Shown in pieces: positions 10,861 through 54,200 of a stretch of DNA of 64,000 nucleotides. The translations under genes were made by a program, and so were the position numbers. Every line of letters begins with the position of its first letter. Position 1 is the first letter of the stretch. The notes below the pieces were generated by a model. That model saw only the letters and a program-made list of their open reading frames with translations, did not search any database and was not told the origin of the DNA. The stretch is taken from the NCBI RefSeq assembly GCF_964340395.1, contig NC_135569.1, forward strand, positions 8,756,040 to 8,820,039. Direction: 5' to 3'. The DNA is from Glandiceps talaboti. Lineage: Eukaryota > Hemichordata > Enteropneusta > Spengelidae.

Positions 10861-13800
10861 TCAGTCTGTTGAACAAGATGCCTCTGTACTTTCATCTGCT
10901 AATTTCTGTTTCTTTTTTGCCCTGATGTCGTTCATCATTTCTTCAACTGATCGTTTGTCTCTCTTATTTTCACTGGGAACTGCAAATGAAAAAAAATGAA
11001 AACAAAGATCAACCCAAATGTTGTTTCGTTGCTCAGGAGTAATGTGCTATTGCAGGTCTCAACTCGGAGCACTGATTCTTCACTTTGTATACTTCGGATA
11101 AATCACTCGGCCTTCATCAGCTTTAGGTGGTTCACTGACATAGACTTGTCCACAAACTGCAGGATGGCATTATTTACTACAATTATATACACAGTCATTG
11201 AACCATGTACAATAACAGCTGAAGGTTGAGGGATTAGCTGAGAAAAAAGCAAGAGAATCAATGCTCTGAGTTTGTTACTGCTATACAATATTGTGATTGG
11301 TCAGTCCATGGTCACATGGTACTTTACACTATTCAATGCAAAGTGACATTATTGGTTTATCACAACTTGTAATTATGCCTGTATAGGCATCTGTACAAAA
11401 AATAATGACTGGTAATGTCATATGTGTACAAGTCAACCAGAAATATGTATCAGATGAACACAGTGCTTTAGTGAGTTACGTTTACCATCCCAAACTGTTT
11501 ATTGGGTGCTAGTGTATGTGCTGCATCACACTTACCAAAACCAAACTATTTATTGGGTGCTAGCGTATGTGCGGCATCTCACTTACCAAAACCAAACTGT
11601 TTATTGGGTGCTAGCATATGTGCTGCATGACACTTACCAAAACCAAACTGTTTATTGGGTGCTAAAGTATGTGCTGCATCCTTGGCTGAATCTTCTCCTA
11701 TCAGTTTCTTATATTTATCCCTATAATTTGTCGTTGGTACAAAATCTTTTTCTTCTGTCCTTGTTGCAGTCCTACTTTCTTCTTGTGTAGATGCGGCCTA
11801 AAAATGATAAAATGTAAAATAATATTGAAATCTTTCAAAAGGGCCATATGGATGAGGATTGGGTATTTATTTTGATTTTTAATTTTCGAAACATGGCTTC
11901 TTACTTGAAAAATCAAAGTGAAACAACACAGACGAATACATTGAAAAAAGATATAAAAAATGTGTAAAATGTCTGTTATTGTACGTACAATAACAAACTT
12001 TTTACACATTTATCAGTCTTTTGCAATTTATTGAGTTTCAAACAAGGACTTGGCATATGTTGTTTCACATTGATTTTTTTAAATATCTAATTTCAATGAG
12101 TCCAGGACTCACTTTTGTTCTGTAAATTTCTCTGGCTTTTTCTGGGTCGATATCTTTACCACTTCTGTATGCTCCCAATTCTTCATCTGTAGGTGCAAAT
12201 TCCTGGAAGAAAAATAGATAAATATGTTTCTTACATTGCCACATTTCAAGGCCTCCAGCATTGCCACATTGCAAGGCCTTCAGCGTTGCCACATTGCAAG
12301 GCCTTCAGCGTTGCCACATTGCTTCAGCTATGTAAGGAATACAGGATGTTTATAACATTCTCAGTGTATATACGTATGCACACATAAATAATTACACTTT
12401 TCATTTGTTGACATGCAATTCACATGTTCTGGGTTTATGAAATTTAATATTTCCATGCAACATTTGTTGACAATTAACAATTTTTCTATTTGCATTTAGT
12501 CATGATGTATTCATGAATTGTTTGTCATTCTATAAAAAAACCTATATTTTGGGAAAAGCATCAAAATAGATCTAGGGTAATGACAATGACAAAAACACAA
12601 TAAAATTTTGTCATACCTTTTTGAATATAATCATATACCTGTCATCATCTCTTTCACCAAATGAAAATGTTGTTAGACCTGCTACTTCAGCAACATCATG
12701 TCTGTTTAGAGGAAAGCAGAATAATGTAATGGACTATGATTAATCTGTGTCTATTAGTTTAGCAGTAGTCGATTGTCTGGTTCCAAGATGCATTGCGCGT
12801 TTGGATGTCGCTCATATTGTTACATTTAGTCTTGTTTTGTCTTATTACATTTGAAATAACATTTCAATCAGGAAATGATGAAAAGACATGTTGACCTCTT
12901 TGGTTACGAGTGATTTTATGGAACAAAGACTAAACGGCATCAATAACAGAGAGGTATTTTACAGGTGAACTCAGGGTATGATCAGCTGACAACCACCCTC
13001 TGAGTAGCATGTGCAAACCCCTCAGAGCGTACACAATACATAGCATTGTATGGAGAGACGCACAATGTATCTTGGAACCGTCAACAGGTCTATTGCTACA
13101 TATGTACATGAGAACATTTTCAGTGCTTTGAAGGGTTTAGAATGGGAAAATAATGTCTTCTGGGTAAACGTTTAGCATTAATATAAATGGAACATAAAAT
13201 CCTCGATGATTCCAAACAATAAGTATGTTGCAATATTATGGCAGTTTGTGGCCATGCGAGGGCGTGCTTCATAGATGAAAATCAGCTTGGGTTGATAATG
13301 TAGAGAGGTGGATTGGAAAACCCTGGTAATTCAAAATAACCAGACACAGACAAAGTTGCATGGAAATGGATACTCAACTCCATTATTTATAGTAGCAGTC
13401 ATAAAGTTACCTTTTAGGAATCTAGTTTTGAAAACACCATCTGTCTCTTAACTGTGACTATGGTTACAACCTTTTGACTATTTACAGTAGTCTACTATCA
13501 CTGTATCAGGTGATTCCACTCAGAGGTCAACTGACCAAACAACATAACATCATTACCGTCATGACTTCTGAGTGATTCAGACAAAAGCAGTCACCTCATA
13601 ATTAGATTCCAAACAGATAATTTCATCACTATTAGACACATTATCTTTTGTAAAGGGCCGTTGTACCGCTACAGATCCATGCCAGGAGTAATAATTGTAA
13701 AGTGCTTTGAACACAGTGTGGCAAAGTGCTATATAAAAACCAACATTATTATAACATTATTTTGTATCTTACATAATACTTCTGTACACTCTATCCATTG

Positions 13801-17178: not shown

Positions 17179-17360
17179 TTTGTGGGTTCACTGGCTTGTT
17201 ATCAAGGAAATCATCAATCTTGTATTTTTATTTAACAGTATTCGGTTGCCATATTGAATTCTAAAATACCTACATTTTGATGTCATTGTGACCTCTTATT
17301 TCAAAACATTGTATGGTGATAATAGCCTTAAAGACCCAGGTGTTCCTTCTGCCTATATAA

Positions 17361-17427
17361 TGCACTCTCACACCTGAACAGGGTCTGTCATAATGCACTC
17401 TCACACCTGAACAGGGTCTGTCATAAT
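17361..17427. repeat. Tandem duplication ~33 bp x 2
   Basis: GCACTCTCACACCTGAACAG followed by GGTCTGTCATAAT occurs twice back to back. Confidence 0.9.
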
Positions 17428-18433
17428 GAGCTGAGTGGAGTAGCAGGTGATTACATAAATAGACCAATGGCTAGTCTTGGTTATCCAGCCTCTCACCGCT
17501 GGGGCTCTACCTATGAGACCACCCTCCAAACAAGAGTCGCAGGGAAGTTGGACCTTTCAGACTATGGTGAAAATAGATTTTCTCTTGATTTTAACTGAGA
17601 ATAGGGTGAAGTTTTCTTGAACAAAGTACCAGTAAAAGTTTACAGAGATTATTTGGGAGGAACATTGTGTTAAAGACACTTTTCAGCAACTATCATAATA
17701 ATGTACTTAGTATATTTACTGAGTTTCTGATAACGAAAAAATAGAAATATCTACTTTTACTGGTACAGTAAAATGTTGAAAGGGGGATTTAAATAGTTAG
17801 TATAAGAACATCCAAATAGATATTTTGTTAGTCTTTTGTCAATTTAGTAGAATATTTTGTAAACTTTAGTGTTTTTGGTCTTGTCCTCACTTCTCTGTCA
17901 CAAGTTCAATGCCATATAATTTGAAAGGGTTTATCTAATAAAGTATTCTATTCTTTTTTCATAATGTTTGTGTGTTCCTACCCAACTCCCTTATCTATGC
18001 CATCTACATCACTAACTATCCTGACATTCAGATTTTTTAAACCTAATTTGCATATCACATCTGTGCTGTGATTATTTTCATTTGAACAATTTCCCATCTA
18101 GACAACCCAAGTGATATCCCCATCAAATACCCCAATAACACATGATACCTGAGAACTGACACTGAATCAATTGACACTGAATCAATCACATGCCCATAAT
18201 TGTTTACCTAGTAACGACTACCAAACTATATATCCACACTGCAGCACATTCAGAGTTACTACTGTCATTCATAGAGATTACTGATACATCCAATCCATCC
18301 ATGTTGCTGCACTCACTTTTCTACCCATAATGCACTACTCCACAGAGATAAACAATTATCGATTTCAAGTGTGCACCATTTATTCCTTAATTGCAATAGT
18401 TTGGTGATTAATTAACAATCACAGTTATTATAG

Positions 18434-31758: not shown

Positions 31759-33487
31759 ATGGCTACTACATATGGGAAACTCTTCGCTACCTCTGCAATC
31801 GCCGAAGCTTACCAGAAATTCAGACCAACGTATCCAAAATCTGTCTCAGAAAGGATAACAAGCTATTTGAAACACAAGGTAAAGAAATATCTTTGTAACA
31901 CCCTGCTTGCATGGCGATTCTAACTGTTGTTGATCCCTCCACCATGTTCACCCCTATACTGGTCCCAGAGGTAGCATAGGAACCGGTAGCATCACACCCC
32001 AATCAATATAGAGTTATGTACACTGCAGCCATAAAAATAGGGCTAAGGAAGCGTGTACTTTTACGGCCGGGATTGAGATGGTGCACCTGGTTCTCCTGGA
32101 TGGTGCACCTGGCTGTACAGTATAGCCGCTATAGCCCTGCTTGCACTGTTGCAGACGGTGTACTGGATTGGATAATTCCAGTATGTTATTTAGACACTAA
32201 ACTTCTGTGTAGTTTCATACATTTTATCTAAAATCTGCTCAAACCTGTGAAGTGAGCATTTAAAAAAAAATCAGATCAATAAAGCAGATGACTTTGTACT
32301 GTTCTTTTCTTTTGAACTTCACTGTTGCCTTGAGATTAAAATAGAAAAAAATGTGTTTCTCTACCTCATAGACAAGAAAGTACGTAATCTGGTTGAAATT
32401 TAAAGGTGTGATGTAAAATTTGAGTAGATGTATTTGGAACTTGTATTTTGTTTTTGATGAGAGGATATGATACGACTTCTGAACCATCCACTTCCCATCA
32501 AACATATGTGTGATCATCATGAATCAGTGATGTACTACTATTCTGGTAAACTGATGGCATGTCTACCCTTGTAGTGACAAGGCCCCCTAGGTCATTCATA
32601 TTTTTCTTAGCTGAATGAAGACAAATCATGTTGGGGAATGATATCTAACGATATTGATATGTTATGTTATGAGTACACACACAAAGTGTCCCAACTTACT
32701 TCACAAATAAAATGCTAATTCATTACTCACACCTGTCATCAAATCCCCATTGTCATTATCAACCCTTGTACTCAATTGACAACCATGTGTAAACAACACT
32801 ATGCCATTTTTGTTTACTTAACTAACACAACATCATGATCCCTGACAGTTATCTAATTAGTGTAATATTCTTCACAGAATCCAGGTCCTTGGAGGTTGGC
32901 TATTGATGTAGGTTGTGGTACTGGTCAAAGTACTAGGAGTCTATCTGATCACTTTGAGACAGTCATAGGATGCGACGTCAGTAAAGCTCAGATTGAAGAA
33001 GCCAAGAAAACAGAAAATCTACAAAATGTAACATACCAGTAGGTATAATCTGTGTTTATATTATCTCCCACATCACTTGACCCCAGACTTGACCTTACAG
33101 TCGACCAAAGCTGTAAGGTCAAATCAACCCCAACTTTTATACTTTGGAGCAAAATACCCCTTGTTACACATTAAAGGACAGAAAGCATTCTTTTTACATC
33201 CATGTGTCTCAGGCTCCACTGCTGCAGAAACCTAGACAGTAATTAGGACACTCAATCTGAAGTATATACAAAAATGTATGATTTATGTCAATTAACTTAG
33301 TCAAACTTGACCTGATGGTCACAATATTGAAATTATGAAAGAACACCTGGCTGTAAGTACATTTCTGAAAAGCTGTTTGTAATTCCTTGATTTGTAGTAC
33401 AATTGAATATGAAGAGCTGTCATGCTATGGTAAAGTGTCTGTCTATCTGTGTATGTGTGTGCATGCATGTGTGTGTGTGTGTGTGTG

Positions 33488-33543
<56 letters not shown>

Positions 33544-36500
33544 CATGCACATGTGTGTGTGTTTGTCTGTCTGACTGTCTGTATGCATATGTGTGTGTGC
33601 CTGTCAGTCTGTCTGTCTCTCTATGCTTGTGCATGTGTGTGTTTGTGGGTTTGTGTAACAGACTTAAAGTCAAACCATTAGACTGAGTGCAGTAAAACTT
33701 GTTGGTGGAGATACTTAGGATGTCTATAGTTAAATAAAAATGATTGCCCCACAAATATGTACTTGGCAGATTGGTCTGAAATTTAGTGAGAATGTTCTAC
33801 AGTGCAAGTGCCATTTTAGACTGTAAGATACGTTGTGACGTTCTGCCCTCATCGGCCTCTGTAGGGGTTGGCCGATGTGTGAGGGTGCCCCATCACAGCG
33901 TACCTTACAGACTAGTGCCATTTGTGCTATTTTTATACATTTGAACAGAATTTTGAAAATTTTATTGATATATCTGAACAGTAAATTTGTTGTTTTTATT
34001 TACCTTTTGAAGGTACAGTTGCATAATAAAGTTTACTATTATTGCTTTTTTTTTAGAGTTGGCAATGATGTTAGTTTACCAGCTGAAGACAACTCTGTTG
34101 ACTTAGTGACAACAGCCCAAGCAGCTCACTGGTTTGATTTGAATAAATTTTACAAAGAGGTTGACAGGGTACTCAAACCAAATGGATGTCTTGCTGTGTA
34201 TGGATACGGAAATGTACAACTATTGAACAATGCCAAGGGTAATGAACTACAGGCTGTCATGAATGAGGTAAAGTAAACACTACATGCTTGTAGTCAAGAT
34301 AGGTTACTGTTTAGGGTAATGAACTACAGGCTGTCATGAATGAGGTAAAGTAAACACTACATGCTTGTAGTCAAGATAGGTTACTGTTTAGGGTAATGAA
34401 CTACAGGCTGTCATGAATGAGGTAAAGTAAACACTACATGCTTGTAGTCAAGATAGGTTACTGTTTAGGGTAATGAACTACAGGCTGTCATGAATGAGGT
34501 AAAGTAAACACTACATGCTTGTAGTCAAGATAGGTTACTGTTTAGGGTAATGAACTACAGGCTGTCATGAATGAGGTAAAGTAAACACTACATGCTTGTA
34601 GTCAAGATAGGTTACTGTTTAGGGTAATGAACTACAGGCTGTCATGAATGAGGTAAAGTAAACACTACATGCTTGTAGTCAAGATAGGTTACTGTTTAGG
34701 GTAATGAACTACAGGCTGTCATGAATGAGGTAAAGTAAACACTACATGCTTGTAGTCAAGATAGGTTACTGTTTAGGGTAATGAACTACAGGCTGTCATG
34801 AATGAGGTAAAGTAAACACTACATGCTTGTAGTCAAGATAGGTTACTGTTTAGGGTAATGAACTACAGGCTGTCATGAATGAGGTAAAGTAAACACTACA
34901 TGCTTGTAGTCAAGATAGGTTACTGTTTAGGGTAATGAACTACAGGCTGTCATGAATGAGGTAAAGTAAACACTACATGCTTGTAGTCAAGATAGGTTAC
35001 TGTTTAGGGTAATGAACTACAGGCTGTCATGAATGAGGTAAAGTAAACACTACATGCTTGTAGTCAAGATAGGTTACTGTTTAGGGTAATGAACTACAGG
35101 CTGTCATGAATGAGGTAAAGTAAACACTACATGCTTGTAGTCAAGATAGGTTACTGTTTAGGGTAATGAACTACAGGCTGTCATGAATGAGGTAAAGTAA
35201 ACACTACATGCTTGTAGTCAAGATAGGTTACTGTTTAGGGTAATGAACTACAGGCTGTCATGAGTGAGGTAAATTAAACAATACATGTGTTTAGTCAAGA
35301 TAGGTTACTGTTTAGGGTAATGAACTACAGGCTGTCATGAATGAGGTAAAGTAAACACTACATGCTTGTAGTCAAGATAGGTTACTGTTTAGGGTAATGA
35401 ACTACAGGCTGTCATGAATGAGGTAAAGTAAACACTACATGCTTGTAGTCAAGATAGGTTACTGTTTAGGGTAATGAACTACAGGCTGTCATGAATGAGG
35501 TAAAGTAAACACTACATGCTTGTAGTCAAGATAGGTTACTGTTTAGGGTAATGAACTACAGGCTGTCATGAATGAGGTAAAGTAAACACTACATGCTTGT
35601 AGTCAAGATTGGACACTGTTTAGAACACCATGACTCACGAGTGCAAATGTGGTGTACTCGGGGTATTTGCATGAATCTGAGCCGAGCCAGGGGTAATAAT
35701 TGTAAAGCATTTTGAGCAAGGAGTGGGAAAGCGCTATATAAGAACCCAACATGAATGCCTGCAGTGTTCTCTGCACCCATAATTTCATGAGCATAACGAG
35801 TAAAAGTGCAGAAAAAACAATGCAAGCACGAGTGCAAATACCCCTGAGTACCCATGCTGGAACTTACATGGCACAGGGGTTCTGTTATTATTATATATGT
35901 TTACCTGAAATGGCAAATTTCCATGATTTTTATCATTACAGCGCGATCACATGATTTCATGTGTAGCAAACGATTGTGTTCTCATTGCATATAATTTGCA
36001 TGCAATAATGTCAGTATTGCACTGTAGTGAAAATACCACTAGTATGCGGTATCTCTTGGTGGATATATAATAATACTCTTTGTCTCATAGTTTTACTATA
36101 GAACTTTACACGGCTTCTGGGGAGAGGGAAGGAAACATATCGAAAATCTATATGCTGATTTTCAGTTACCGTATATTGAGTCTGAAAGGTAATTTTTTTC
36201 ATTTTCATATGTAAGATTTCTCTCCCCAATTATATAGCTAGTTAGTTTATCGCTCCACTACAAGAATGGTGTTCCCAACCCCACCTGTCTTATCTTAGAA
36301 TTAGACCATTTCATATATACTCATGCAATTTAATGACCTTATGATAACATGCATATCAGTCATTTCCCCATTCATGGCCAAACAAATCTGTCTCTTATGT
36401 CAACAGAATCAAACTGTTAAGTAACCAAACTTTTCACCTGGACTACTTTGCATCTAAGACTTTCAAACACTTTGAATGCTTGTAGGGACTTGATTGTCAT

Positions 36501-38599
36501 GGCTGTGTTGTCTGTTTTTGATATCTTATTTCCATTTAATTTATGAGTTATCGCAATAATAATCTTGCACATAAATACTATGTATGGCCGCAATTAGTCT
36601 GAGCCAGGGGTTGATGGGGATGTTTATACCTAAATGTCAACACAATAATCTGTAAGCTGTGATTACAGCGTGTACATTGGTCGATTTATTAGCCCCACTA
36701 AATCCAGATGTCAGTGTATAACATGGTTTGTTTGCAAGTGCACGGATTGTCATGGCAACTTGCAGATTTCAAGACAGACCTTCGTGACTTTACAAAGTAC
36801 TTGACTGTACTTAGAACTAGTCTTATCCTTGCCTTCAGAGATGATTCCATGTCCATAGAATTGACGTACACAGTAGCAGACTTTGTTGGATACCTCAGTT
36901 CCTGGTCAGCTTATCATAACTACTTGAAGACACATCCAGAGAAAACTGAAACCTTAACAGAAGTCTTACAGAAGTAAGAAACTTCATACTATATTACCTT
37001 CACATTTTGTTGAATTTCTTACCACACAAACCAAAGGCAGACACACAGACAGACAATAGCTCCGTCTACATGGCACTAAAAAGGATTCAGGATAGTTTGA
37101 AGCCTGTGTATACGCAAACGCGTTCTGAACCTGTCCTGAAACCGTCCTGACTTAGGACACCTTTGAGAGGTTTCCTGAAACCCTCCTGACTTCGTCCTAT
37201 GTACTGTCAGGACGGGACAGAAGGCGCGACATCTCCGCTGTAACCTTCCTACATGTAGACACAAATCTATCCTACCTCAGGTAGGACTTGGGACTGCCTC
37301 AGGTAGGACGACCTATGTGTAGATGGGGCTAATGTGTGTGCACATACACTCAAACATGCATATATGTATATGTTATTTGCCAAATACCGTTCCATATCTT
37401 GCTGCGAGAGGTAATTTTTCTGGTAATAACGGAGAGCCGGAGGCGAGCCGTTATACCGGAAAAATTAACTCGAGCAGCAAGATGTGGAACAGTATTTGGC
37501 AAATAACATACTTATACGTCACCTGCGACGATGAATTAATTTTTGAATGTCTAAAAATGCTGTTTCACTTTAAAATAAAATCACTTCCGCGTTATACTGT
37601 TGAGCGTAGTATCATGCACCTCTCTGATAACTGCAATGTGGTTGTTTACATGTCAGCCTTAACTTTATCATCCAATCAGAGTGCGCGTTTGCTCAGTAGT
37701 ATGACGTATTGTTTACTATTTGCATATCACTCAGCGATATTTTCAAACTTATAACCATCAGCTGAAAAATGAGTGCGTCTTTGTTTTGCGTAATGTATTC
37801 CATTAAATGTACAAAAATGTTCGTGATATGCTTTCTTGTTCTAGTTAAGCAAAAACTGCACCCTCTGTGGTGGTAATTTTCATATCCTTCGTAAATTTAT
37901 TAGGAATTCATGTTTACGATCGCGTGACGACCGCGAGTTCGCTGTCACTGGACTTTCGCCGTTCTGTGTGGAATTTTGGCTTTTTCCCTGTAACATGAAA
38001 AGTACAGTTCAAAGACTTGTTACAATTTATACAACGGTGATATTTTGTTCGGTTGACAACAAATTTGGCATTGGGAATGCTTGTTATAGCTGTATTTCTA
38101 GTTGTCTGCTAGATTTGTTTACAAGGGGACGTGCAGTGATCACGTGATACAACAAGCAAAAATACGGCTGTTGGTGAAAAATACGCCTGTGTATCTGCAG
38201 GGCTCTCGACCAATCAGAATGCGAGATTGGTGACAGGTGACGTATAATGAGCATGTCTTAGTGTCTTGTCCTGGGATCATAGCTGTAGTAATGGAGTTTT
38301 TACCTCATTTACTTGGAATCTAATTAAACCTGCACTAAAACCCCATGGTGTTTAGACACCATAAAGCGTGGAAAGGTATTAGTGGGATATACAACTTGGT
38401 GTGAACGCGCATCATTGTATATCCTTTATGCGTATTGATATGTTAGAGATAATTATGACCAGTTCTGAGTTCTATATCACATCTTTGTTTCAGGTTTATG
38501 AATGTATTGGATGTGAAGACATCACCAGCGGAAACTTCTCTACATATCAACTATCCAATTTTCCTTTTACTTGGCAGAAAACCTGAAGATTCAAAGTGA
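31759..38599 (+). CDS. SAM-dependent methyltransferase, DDB_G0268948/TMT1-like (6 exons)
   Basis: Exons 31759-31878, 32878-33038, 34057-34267, 36091-36188, 36839-36973 and 38494-38599 join in phase to 276 residues, the usual family length. The N-terminus has the family signature [19 protein letters not shown]. Motif I is [15 protein letters not shown] (DVGCGTG at 50-56, the SAM-binding loop), followed by [16 protein letters not shown]. Exon 3 has [20 protein letters not shown] and [18 protein letters not shown]. Exon 4 gives [20 protein letters not shown]. Exon 5 has [20 protein letters not shown] and the C-terminus ends in [12 protein letters not shown]. This is a class I Methyltransf_11 protein of the kind annotated as 'putative methyltransferase DDB_G0268948' and related to fungal TMT1/Crg1; the substrate is unknown. 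The end of exon 3 with its 5' splice site is repeated about 18 times downstream (34237-35622). For exon 5 I chose the acceptor at 36838, which joins exon 4 as ...[12 protein letters not shown]. Confidence 0.9.
33459..33539. repeat. (TG)n microsatellite in methyltransferase intron 2
   Basis: Long GT run with GCATG interruptions. Flanking CTGTCTGTC runs extend the low-complexity block to about 33655. The Cys-Val and Thr-His reading frames over it are artefacts. Confidence 0.95.
33817..33914. mobile_element. ~98-bp MITE, Mutator-like, copy 2, with 9-bp target duplication
   Basis: It begins TAGACTGTAAGATACGTTG and ends CAGCGTACCTTACAGACTA, an 11-bp perfect and ~21-bp imperfect terminal inverted repeat. 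GTGCCATTT stands immediately on both sides, a 9-bp target-site duplication as made by Mutator-like transposases. It has no coding capacity and lies in methyltransferase intron 2. Confidence 0.85.
34237..35622 (+). repeat. 77-bp x 18 minisatellite spanning the methyltransferase exon 3 / intron 3 boundary
   Basis: GGGTAATGAACTACAGGCTG recurs every 77 bp from 34237 to 35546 (17 exact steps, so 18 units). The first unit is the last 30 bp of exon 3 (encoding [10 protein letters not shown]) plus its donor GTAAAG and ~41 bp of intron. Units 2-18 lie in the intron and keep the 30-bp exon copy and donor. In those units the exon copy is preceded by TTACTGTTTAG, an acceptor-like end. Copies are nearly identical except the unit at 35238, which has about half a dozen changes, and the last unit, which decays at its end. 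Confidence 0.97.
35625..35870. repeat. Foldback element with SINE-like tail segment inside
   Basis: ACTCACGAGTGCAAATG and GTGTACTCGGGGTATTTGC are mirrored by GCACGAGTGCAAATACCCC and TGAGTACCC near 35825-35855. It encloses the TAATAATTGTAAAGC...GCGCTATATAAG module also seen at 13655-13755. It directly abuts the end of the 77-bp array. Confidence 0.6.
37057..37332. mobile_element. ~275-bp MITE-like element in methyltransferase intron 5
   Basis: The ends TAGCTCCGTCTACATGG and CTATGTGTAGATGGGGCTA are imperfect inverted repeats. The inside is built of short CCTGAAACC, GTCCTGACTT and GGTAGGAC repeats. GC content is higher than the flanks. Confidence 0.6.
37368..37512. repeat. Palindrome with ~55-bp arms
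   Basis: ATGTTATTTGCCAAATACCG is mirrored by AGTATTTGGCAAATAACAT, and TATCTTGCTGC/GCAGCAAGAT and the GGTAATTTTTC/GAAAAATTA blocks continue inward to AACGGAGAGCCGGAGGCGAG. Little spacer remains. Confidence 0.8.
37500..38262. repeat. Possible larger element with inverted ends TTATACGTCACCTG
   Basis: CTTATACGTCACCTGCGAC at 37510 is mirrored by GTGACAGGTGACGTATAATG near 38231-38252. Two CCAATCAGA boxes and a CACGTGAT box lie inside. The segment GCGTGACGACCGCGAGTTC resembles GTGACCACCGCGCGTTC at 7441. No reading frame is recognisable. This may be a non-autonomous DNA transposon. Confidence 0.45.
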
Positions 38600-51212: not shown

Positions 51213-54200
51213 ATGAGACCTTTAACCGAAGAAGAGACCAAGGCTTTGTTTGAAAAACTGTCTAAATAGTGAGTATTTTTGTTTCATTTGTGTAATTTGT
51301 AAAACGTAAAATGAATGGGTTCATGAACATAACGTGTTGTTCACGTTGATATATCATTATACGGCCATCATTATATGTCATTGATTTTATTACCTTTTGT
51401 TTCTCATATTAATCAGTGTTACTTGGGAACGACACCTGTTAATGTTGGTCAGTGAGTGGTTGGTGGTAGTTATGGATGGGGTGGGGGTGGGTGGCGTTGA
51501 ACACGTGACTGGATGGAGACACCTAAATTATATGTGGAGTTTATTGCACAACCATACGTATTACATGTAGTAAACATTAGACCTGCTTGTCGACAGATAT
51601 AGGACTTGATTCTGAATGTCCCTACACACTGTCCTGTGAAATCTTGAACAACAAGCTCATCATGTCAGAATCGAGTCTAACTTACTCCATCTGCAAGGAG
51701 GACTAAATAGTCTTTCACTTTTACTTTCTAAAAAGTCCTTCACATCAACCATTGCTATTGTGATACGACAAAACAATACTTTTTCTATCAATACCCATAT
51801 ATGGAGCCAGTAGGCTTTGACAGAATTAGTATTACTTTCACTATTTGTTAAAATCATCCTAATGTATATTTATAATGATATTCATATTAAATTTAATTTA
51901 CAGTATTGGTGAAAATATCAAATTATTAATTGACAGACCAGATGGCCAGTACTGCTTTAGGTATCACAGAGACAGGGTATACTATGTAAGGTAAGTAATG
52001 GTATCACCCTAGATAGGTATCACAGAGACAGGGTATACTTTGTAAGGTAAGTAATGGTATCACCCTAGATAGGTATCACAGAGACAGGGTATACTATGTA
52101 AGGTAAGTAATGGTATCACCCTAGATAGGTATCACAGAGATAGAGTATACTATGTAAGGTAAGTAATGGTATCACTATAGACAGTGTCTAGGGTATCACA
52201 TAACACAGGCCTATATTGCACTTCCTCAACTCTCTTTGGCACATCATCCATGCTGCCACAAAACATTGAATCCTTCACAAAGCAAATCACCAACCTACCA
52301 GGTCCCCATTCATACAGCTAGGTTGACTATAGAGCAAGATAATTGATAAATAATACCTATGAACTTTTTGTCACTCAGAAACAAATGACAGTGTGAAGTT
52401 TGAACTGTCAACTTGCAGATTATTCTATTAGTAGCTTAGAATCTTTACTAGGTCGATCCTGACTGTGTCCTGTCAACATACATGTAGGGTGTAGGGTCAT
52501 TTCTAAGTCATTCAGACTGTTAAATTGATTATGAAAAGAAAGTATTACTTTTTTTTCTTTTTGAAAATGTTTGCCTGTTGACCGACCAACTGATCCGTCA
52601 TTTTGAAGGTGTTACGATGAGAAACTTGGAGTTAAGTACCATTGCCCTTAAGAGATATACTTATAATGATTTTATTATTCGTTTTTTTTCCAGTGAAGCG
52701 TTGATGAAAAGAGCTGCCAATGTCAGTAGAAATCACCTGGTTAGTGTAGGTACATGTTTTGGAAAATTTACAAAAACGCAAAAATTTCGTCTTCATGTCA
52801 CAGCCCTAGATTTCCTTTCACCATATGCAAAGGTGAGTGTAATATGTTGTTAGTTTATTGAAAGCTGCACTAGCTGCAACTGGAATGTCTTTTTGAAAAT
52901 GTTTTGTTAGGTACAACACTTGTAATATCATGCACCCTGAACAGAATTGTATCATCTGTGGTAAACATATTTTTGTAGCTGTATACATGATAAATCAAAT
53001 CAAAATTGATTTTTGGGTCAGCACCCCAAAATCAGCGCCCTCAACGGCGATCACGATTTCAACTAATTTCTGTACTGCTTATGGTTAATATTGACCTCTG
53101 ATTAACATGTACAATGTGTAATTATTGGTATTTTAGCAATTTTCAATGAATAGATTGCGGTTGGCTAATTAATACGTGTCAAACTAGTACAGTTTTAACA
53201 TGGTGACAGATTGAAAACTAAGCTTTTGCTCAAGATTTAAACTTGTCACTAAAATACCAACAGATATTATATTGACCACTAATTAACAGATATAACATGA
53301 CGTCTATAAGTAACTGACCAATTTCTAGTGAATATATATGTATGCTTTGGTGAACAAATAAGTCTTCAGTTTTGTTTTGTAACAATCCAGGCTGGAGGCT
53401 TGGCAAATGTGAAGTGGCATAGAGTCCCATATTTTGATGACTGTCAGTGTTAAATTACAAAAACACTGTATATCAACCACACTTCAGGTGTGACTATAAA
53501 CCAACTTTTTGAATCCATCTGGGGCATAGAAGACATTGTAATCTGCCACATTAATCCAAATATGGAACTTTTTGCCATTTGACATTCACCAAGCCTCCAG
53601 CCTGGATTGTTTCAAAACAAAAGTGAAGACTTATTTGTTCACCAAAGCCTACAGTGTGCTGTAGCCATTCAGTTTACTACTACTAATGAACAGAACATTG
53701 CTCTGGAGATTGTTGCTATAGAAATGTGATTGATTGATAAATTGATTGATTGATTGATTGATTGATTGATAGATAGAACATCAACATAACTTGAACATAC
53801 ATAGTTGATTGAATCAAAGAAATAAAAAGGGGAAAGTGAATAAACTAACTTTAGTCTAAAATTAAATCTACTTCTACTAAAAAGAATTGCAGCAGCCAAT
53901 AATGACATTTAGGTATTATATGTCAAGTTAATCACTCAGATTCAAACCACAGGTTGACTTGTTGATAAACATTCAGTAGCTTTCTGTCTTATGCTTATCA
54001 CTTTTTGATTGATGAATGATCTATTTCTTACAGTACAAAGTGTGGGTGAAGCCTGGAGCAGAACAGTCGTATCTTTATGGAAATCACGTAGCTAAGTCTG
54101 GACTTGGTAGAATAACAGATAATACTCCACAATACCAAGGAGTGGTTGTTTACTCTATGAATGATATGCCATTAGTAAGTGAATACTCAAATATTTAATC

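Follow-up and report, generated by a model that had tools for sequence, protein, structure and literature searches.

Why should the last codons of an exon, together with the splice donor that follows them, lie in 18 nearly perfect tandem copies inside a gene, and which of those donors would the spliceosome use? The question is raised by a methyltransferase gene of the enteropneust Glandiceps talaboti (Hemichordata), located in a 64-kb window (the whole stretch of DNA analysed here, whose positions are used throughout unless another sequence is named). Minisatellite-like tandem duplications of exon-intron boundaries are known from amphioxus, where they have been called mirages (PMC3087553, PMC3902484). 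An earlier note on the present locus had described its array from the sequence alone and had proposed that it offers up to 18 competing 5' splice sites. Here we delimit the array, follow the consequences of using each kind of donor, look for similar arrays in the window and elsewhere in the genome, and weigh what the array may be.

A 77-bp array across an exon-intron boundary

The host gene and the features of its array, all on the + strand, are as follows.

31759-38599, +: DDB_G0268948-like methyltransferase gene with six coding exons
31759-31878, 32878-33038 and 34057-34267, +: coding exons 1-3
36091-36188, 36839-36973 and 38494-38599, +: coding exons 4-6
34238-35623, +: minisatellite of 18 x 77 bp that spans the junction of exon 3 and intron 3, cut into units
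34238-34267, +: final 30 nt of exon 3 (10 residues), forming the exonic part of unit 1
34268-34314, +: opening 47 nt of intron 3, forming the intronic part of unit 1 and including the native donor GTAAAG
34274, +: in-frame TAA within the intronic part of unit 1
35239-35315, +: variant unit 14, with 6 substitutions and the donor GTAAAT
35547-35623, +: edge unit 18, with 3 substitutions, all in its last 14 bp

Joining the six coding exons through the first donor of the array gives a 276-residue product with no leftover frame, whose best Pfam match is Methyltransf_11 (E 1.2e-23). This product is the NCBI protein 'putative methyltransferase DDB_G0268948 [Glandiceps talaboti]' (P0001, 276 aa, 100% identity over 100%), a model that may itself be a prediction; among the matches listed (120 of 658), the remaining G. 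talaboti entries are at most 67% identical to it. Extra copies of the repeated peptide were found in none of 11 aligned homologues of the methyltransferase.

Tandem Repeats Finder reports the array at 34236-35623 with a period of 77, 18.0 copies, 98% matches and 0% indels, and its score of 2713 is the highest of the 46 rows returned for the 64-kb window. Cut apart, the array consists of 18 head-to-tail units of exactly 77 bp, 16 of them identical, each made of the last 30 nt of exon 3 followed by the first 47 nt of intron 3. Both analyses thus bear out the 18 repeats of 77-bp period, built from an exon end and its 5' splice site, that the earlier note had recorded. Its array was the right one, placed one base out of frame (34238-35623 is correct), and its count of 18 holds for the array as a whole; because unit 1 is the end of exon 3 itself, the intronic copies number 17. 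Every unit contains a GT donor, GTAAAG in 17 and GTAAAT in one, and the exon copy of 30 nt in phase 0, this distribution of donors and the next exon at 36091 are all as had been claimed. The common ending ascribed to the intronic units needs one correction, since 17 of the 18 units end in GTTACTGTTTAG and the last in GACACTGTTTAG. When 264 bases of the array were searched against the assembly (47 contigs, 590 Mb), at least nine matches came back, each within the array itself.

Predicted use of the repeated donors

When donors 2, 3, 14 or 18 were used by script with no further splicing, the reading frame in each case stopped at codon 167, after 166 residues, because a TAA stands in frame directly after GTAAAG. 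The remaining later donors should meet the same TAA, as all of them read through the sequence of unit 1. Use of a unit as a 30-nt exon does add 10 residues in frame, as had been anticipated, and the frame was kept in every combination tested (n = 0, 1, 2 and 17 added copies). Such cassette use requires introns of 47 nt, and the two unit junctions measured, those of units 2 and 18, make poor acceptors: the preceding 20 nt are 50% pyrimidine with a longest run of 3, whereas the methyltransferase gene's five real acceptors have 60-80% pyrimidine and runs of 5-10. The donor, GAG/GTAAAG, has a low score (3.3, where the NIP7 donor described below reaches 7.7 on the scoring matrix used), and since this low-scoring donor is identical in 17 of the 18 units, sequence alone does not favour copy 1. 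RNA hairpins were also considered as the point of the repeat and were rejected, because folding was no better than that of shuffled sequences, with unremarkable z values of -1.25 for the 47-nt intronic part of unit 1, -1.04 for that of unit 14 and -0.93 for a 148-nt stretch.

Sister arrays in NIP7 and SPAG7

Two further arrays in the window span a donor.

51959-52182, +: NIP7 boundary array of 4 x 56 bp, each unit comprising 32 nt from the end of exon 2 and 24 nt of intron including the donor GTAAGT
11477-11680, -: SPAG7 boundary array of 4 x 51 bp (3.7 copies in Tandem Repeats Finder), comprising the last 43 nt of an exon and GTAAGT

Spliced by hand through donor 1, NIP7 yields a product that aligns over all 180 aa with the NIP7 homologue of PDB 8fkt, which we take to be the human protein; donor 2 leads to an immediate stop, and Pfam returned nothing for the 29-residue NIP7 exon. 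The donor-1 product of SPAG7, likewise spliced by hand, was queried over 203 aa and is 100% identical there to the SPAG7 model of G. talaboti; a PDB search with 54 residues of SPAG7 returned nothing. In the SPAG7 array, the last copy of which diverges at the donor, donor 3 would meet a stop and donor 2 would add 17 residues with no stop; this makes donor 2 the strongest candidate for a variant that is really spliced, and makes splice variants in the sister arrays possible. Together with the methyltransferase array, 3 of the 12 complex arrays of period at least 20 in the window span a donor, and the spacers of two of these three, those in methyltransferase and NIP7, begin with GT and end with AG.

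Two other repeats in the window may be recorded here. A 25-bp x 3.6 array in an intron of SPAG7 (12234-12322) stops about 31 nt short of the next exon without crossing it. A perfect 33-bp x 2.2 repeat at 17357-17428 lies in an open frame, may represent an in-frame coding duplication, and has a donor-like site on the - strand.

Origin of the array

Several paralogues exist in the genome, with 51 exon matches in total, those of the gene itself included. For comparison we used six cut-out exon-3 loci (L029-L034), leaving out more distant exon-3 matches. In all six the boundary falls at the same codon; each has one donor, and no array spans it. An array common to the paralogues, spanning the boundary in 0 of 6, was therefore rejected, and the exon 3 / intron 3 boundary, which all six keep, is older than the array. 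An intron new to this gene would be absent from its relatives; the position of intron 3 is common to all six loci. Deeper in the intron, two paralogue loci carry other repeats (42 bp x 2.0 in L030 and TATG in L033).

At the edges of the array, the upstream flank ends in CCAAG, and the downstream side reads TTTAG and then continues into unrelated sequence. The AG shared by these edges would fit a microhomology of 2 bp at the initial duplication. From the identity of 16 units we infer recent growth or homogenisation, in agreement with the young or homogenised array that had been proposed.

Putative boundary arrays elsewhere in the genome

We sampled 18 pieces of 10 kb (L009-L026), set at distances of 1, 2 or 5 Mb from the starts of contigs rather than at random. 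These pieces contain 45 complex arrays of period at least 20, which cover 14.6% of readable bases. The survey addressed donors, not acceptors, and the array with the top donor score among the 45 was inspected; outside that inspection, three further arrays have donor scores above 3.3 (L010 9611-9673, L019 9668-9780 and L024 885-930). Long arrays also occur in the sampled pieces, with an 89-bp unit over 6.5 kb in L015 and a 44-bp unit over 5.4 kb in L025. Five arrays on C1 (L039-L043) were taken in addition from the listing of the donor-triplet pattern described in the next section. Two arrays are located as follows.

Sampled piece L019, 1396-2223, -: array of 33 bp x 25 from the donor of an open exon, recognised by frame and splice signals
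C1, 5046389 to beyond 5049108: 27-bp donor-containing array of more than 2.7 kb (L043), after a probable short exon

The exon at the L019 array, joined by hand with neighbouring frames, gives a weak match to Fam20C (25.4 bits, against a curated cut-off of 26.8), by which the gene is possibly a Fam20C-like kinase gene. The exon peptide matched no Pfam family and gave one unrelated match in PDB (E 0.13), and NCBIfam returned nothing for the hand-joined frames. On C1, the L042 array comes after an acceptor and 45 open codons, and that of L043 probably follows a short exon; L040 and L041 are ambiguous and L039 is not coding-like. With exons at L019 and L039-L043 called from frames and splice signals rather than homology, the anatomy seen in the methyltransferase, NIP7 and SPAG7 genes appears to be present at two or more further loci.

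Are donors favoured sites of minisatellites?

Genome-wide, windows with a triplet of the donor word AGGTAAGT at 28-58 bp spacing number 2884, against 1016 for TGAATGGA, 682 for GGATAGTA and 907 for ATGATAGG, three control words of the same composition, with one long array counted many times because triplet windows overlap within arrays. Among the matches listed, the distinct arrays on C1 up to 5.05 Mb number 5 for the donor, 2 for TGAATGGA and 0 for GGATAGTA; this comparison ends at the last of 100 listed donor places, and ATGATAGG falls outside it. Outside arrays, the four words occur 13 (AGGTAAGT), 17 (TGAATGGA), 0 (GGATAGTA) and 2 (ATGATAGG) times in 210,997 sampled bases. As both GGATAGTA and ATGATAGG are rare outside arrays, the donor is not clearly enriched per word over either, and after normalisation for word frequency the evidence for donor enrichment is mixed, giving a lead.

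Tail probabilities were calculated after the fact. For the 3 of 12 arrays in the window, the Poisson tail is 0.0005, 0.0034 or 0.010 when 20, 40 or 60 donors are assumed, and 0.0098, 0.036 or 0.073, again after the fact, when the given array is left out; in the sampled pieces, the likewise retrospective tail for at least one donor array is 0.35 to 0.82. Comparisons of distinct arrays, also made after the fact and raw for word frequency, give 0.019 (4 of 9, simple-repeat-like arrays excluded) or 0.054 (5 of 17) against TGAATGGA and 3e-5 or 4e-4 against GGATAGTA. That minisatellites in acorn worms arise preferentially at 5' splice sites, so that an exon end with its donor stands in tandem copies in hundreds of genes, is a proposal we regard as doubtful. 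If true, it would mean a continuing supply of longer introns, alternative donors and occasionally new exons, a property that acorn worms would have in common with amphioxus and that may be of old standing in deuterostomes.

Discussion

We consider it very probable that the methyltransferase array is a mirage-type minisatellite which arose by repeated tandem duplication across the exon-intron boundary, and in which copy 1 is the working donor and the other copies leave with the intron. One initial tandem duplication, its ends sharing the 2-bp microhomology AG, would have been followed by growth through slippage or unequal exchange and by homogenisation. Copy 1, being joined to the real exon, would have retained donor function; the spliceosome would join donor 1 to the acceptor at 36091, so removing the other 17 copies, and products of later donors, with their early stop, would be lost or truncated. 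The intron would thereby have been lengthened by 17 x 77 = 1309 bp by an array that is otherwise largely inert: with copies 2-18 spliced out and later-donor products stopping early, lengthening the intron would be its main effect. Several observations support use of the first donor, namely the identity of the NCBI protein with the donor-1 product, the lack of added copies in the 11 homologues, the in-frame TAA and the weak acceptors at the two unit junctions measured. The reading is also supported by the shared anatomy of NIP7 and SPAG7 and by the normal splicing reported for the amphioxus mirages.

The array could instead regulate splicing, either because its 18 donors compete or because its units are included as cassette exons of 30 nt. 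The outcome would be length isoforms, or unproductive transcripts by which expression is tuned. Its intronic units have suitable features, as they end in AG, present a phase-0 exon copy of 30 nt and carry a GT donor, the frame survives 0, 1, 2 or 17 added copies, and the SPAG7 array allows a form with 17 additional residues. The proposal of 18 meaningful competing donors is nevertheless not supported by our results: a later donor used alone runs into the stop at codon 167, cassettes would need 47-nt introns with poor pyrimidine tracts, the NCBI model is the first-donor product and, like the 11 aligned homologues, has no added copies, and the amphioxus precedents reportedly splice normally (PMC3087553, PMC3902484). 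We therefore judge the regulatory explanation unlikely and give it little credence.

Fainter still is the case for a stage in intron gain or in the shift of an exon end by tandem duplication, after which later mutation could make a copy into a real exon. Such a role has been proposed for amphioxus globin mirages (PMC3087553), it is related to the AGGT tandem-duplication model (PMC4974935), and the GT-to-AG spacers of the methyltransferase and NIP7 arrays would suit it; at the methyltransferase, however, no intron has been gained, since all six paralogue loci share its position, and what is described is a possible future rather than a present function. That the assembly has inflated the number or identity of the units, as their near-perfect identity might suggest, is hardly credible given the 6 private substitutions of unit 14 and the 3 of the edge unit, an assembly of 590 Mb in 47 contigs, and similar arrays at other loci. 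Boundary arrays like the one in the methyltransferase gene offer a natural test of which donor a spliceosome takes when the choices are identical and only their position differs, and they are relevant to the sources of intron length and of new introns.

Comparison with known systems

Boundary minisatellites are a known kind of element from amphioxus; what is new here is the hemichordate context and the recurrence in NIP7 and SPAG7, which bring the phenomenon into another deuterostome phylum, represented there by three cases within one 64-kb window. Among the titles and abstracts found on hemichordates or acorn worms and minisatellites, in a search that covered few subscription papers, none reports such arrays.

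Tandem duplication of AGGT-containing sequence, as modelled for intron gain with the examples of ATP2A1 and potato RdRp (PMC4974935), multiplies splice signals, as does the methyltransferase array; unlike those cases, the methyltransferase intron was pre-existing, and the gene shows no sign of a new one. In human segmental duplications, internal tandem repeats located at exon-intron boundaries are reported to form novel introns with alternative transcripts (PMC2812944). The methyltransferase array resembles them in its minisatellite length and its place at a boundary; the human repeats can alter splicing, whereas the recorded methyltransferase protein is unaltered.

The closest likeness is to the amphioxus mirages, which are described in Adh3, troponin C and the globins BflGb6 and BflGb9, with similar repeats in PGBD5, and which reportedly leave regular splicing undisturbed and vary in length (PMC3087553, PMC3902484). 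As in those accounts, the methyltransferase repeat unit spans an exon-intron boundary and many units carry splice signals. It differs in having 18 units, of which 16 are identical; the two BflGb6 haplotypes have 6 and 3 (same sources). Its host is a hemichordate and not a cephalochordate, a difference of provenance that lies outside the structural definition; by that definition, the methyltransferase array is a mirage.
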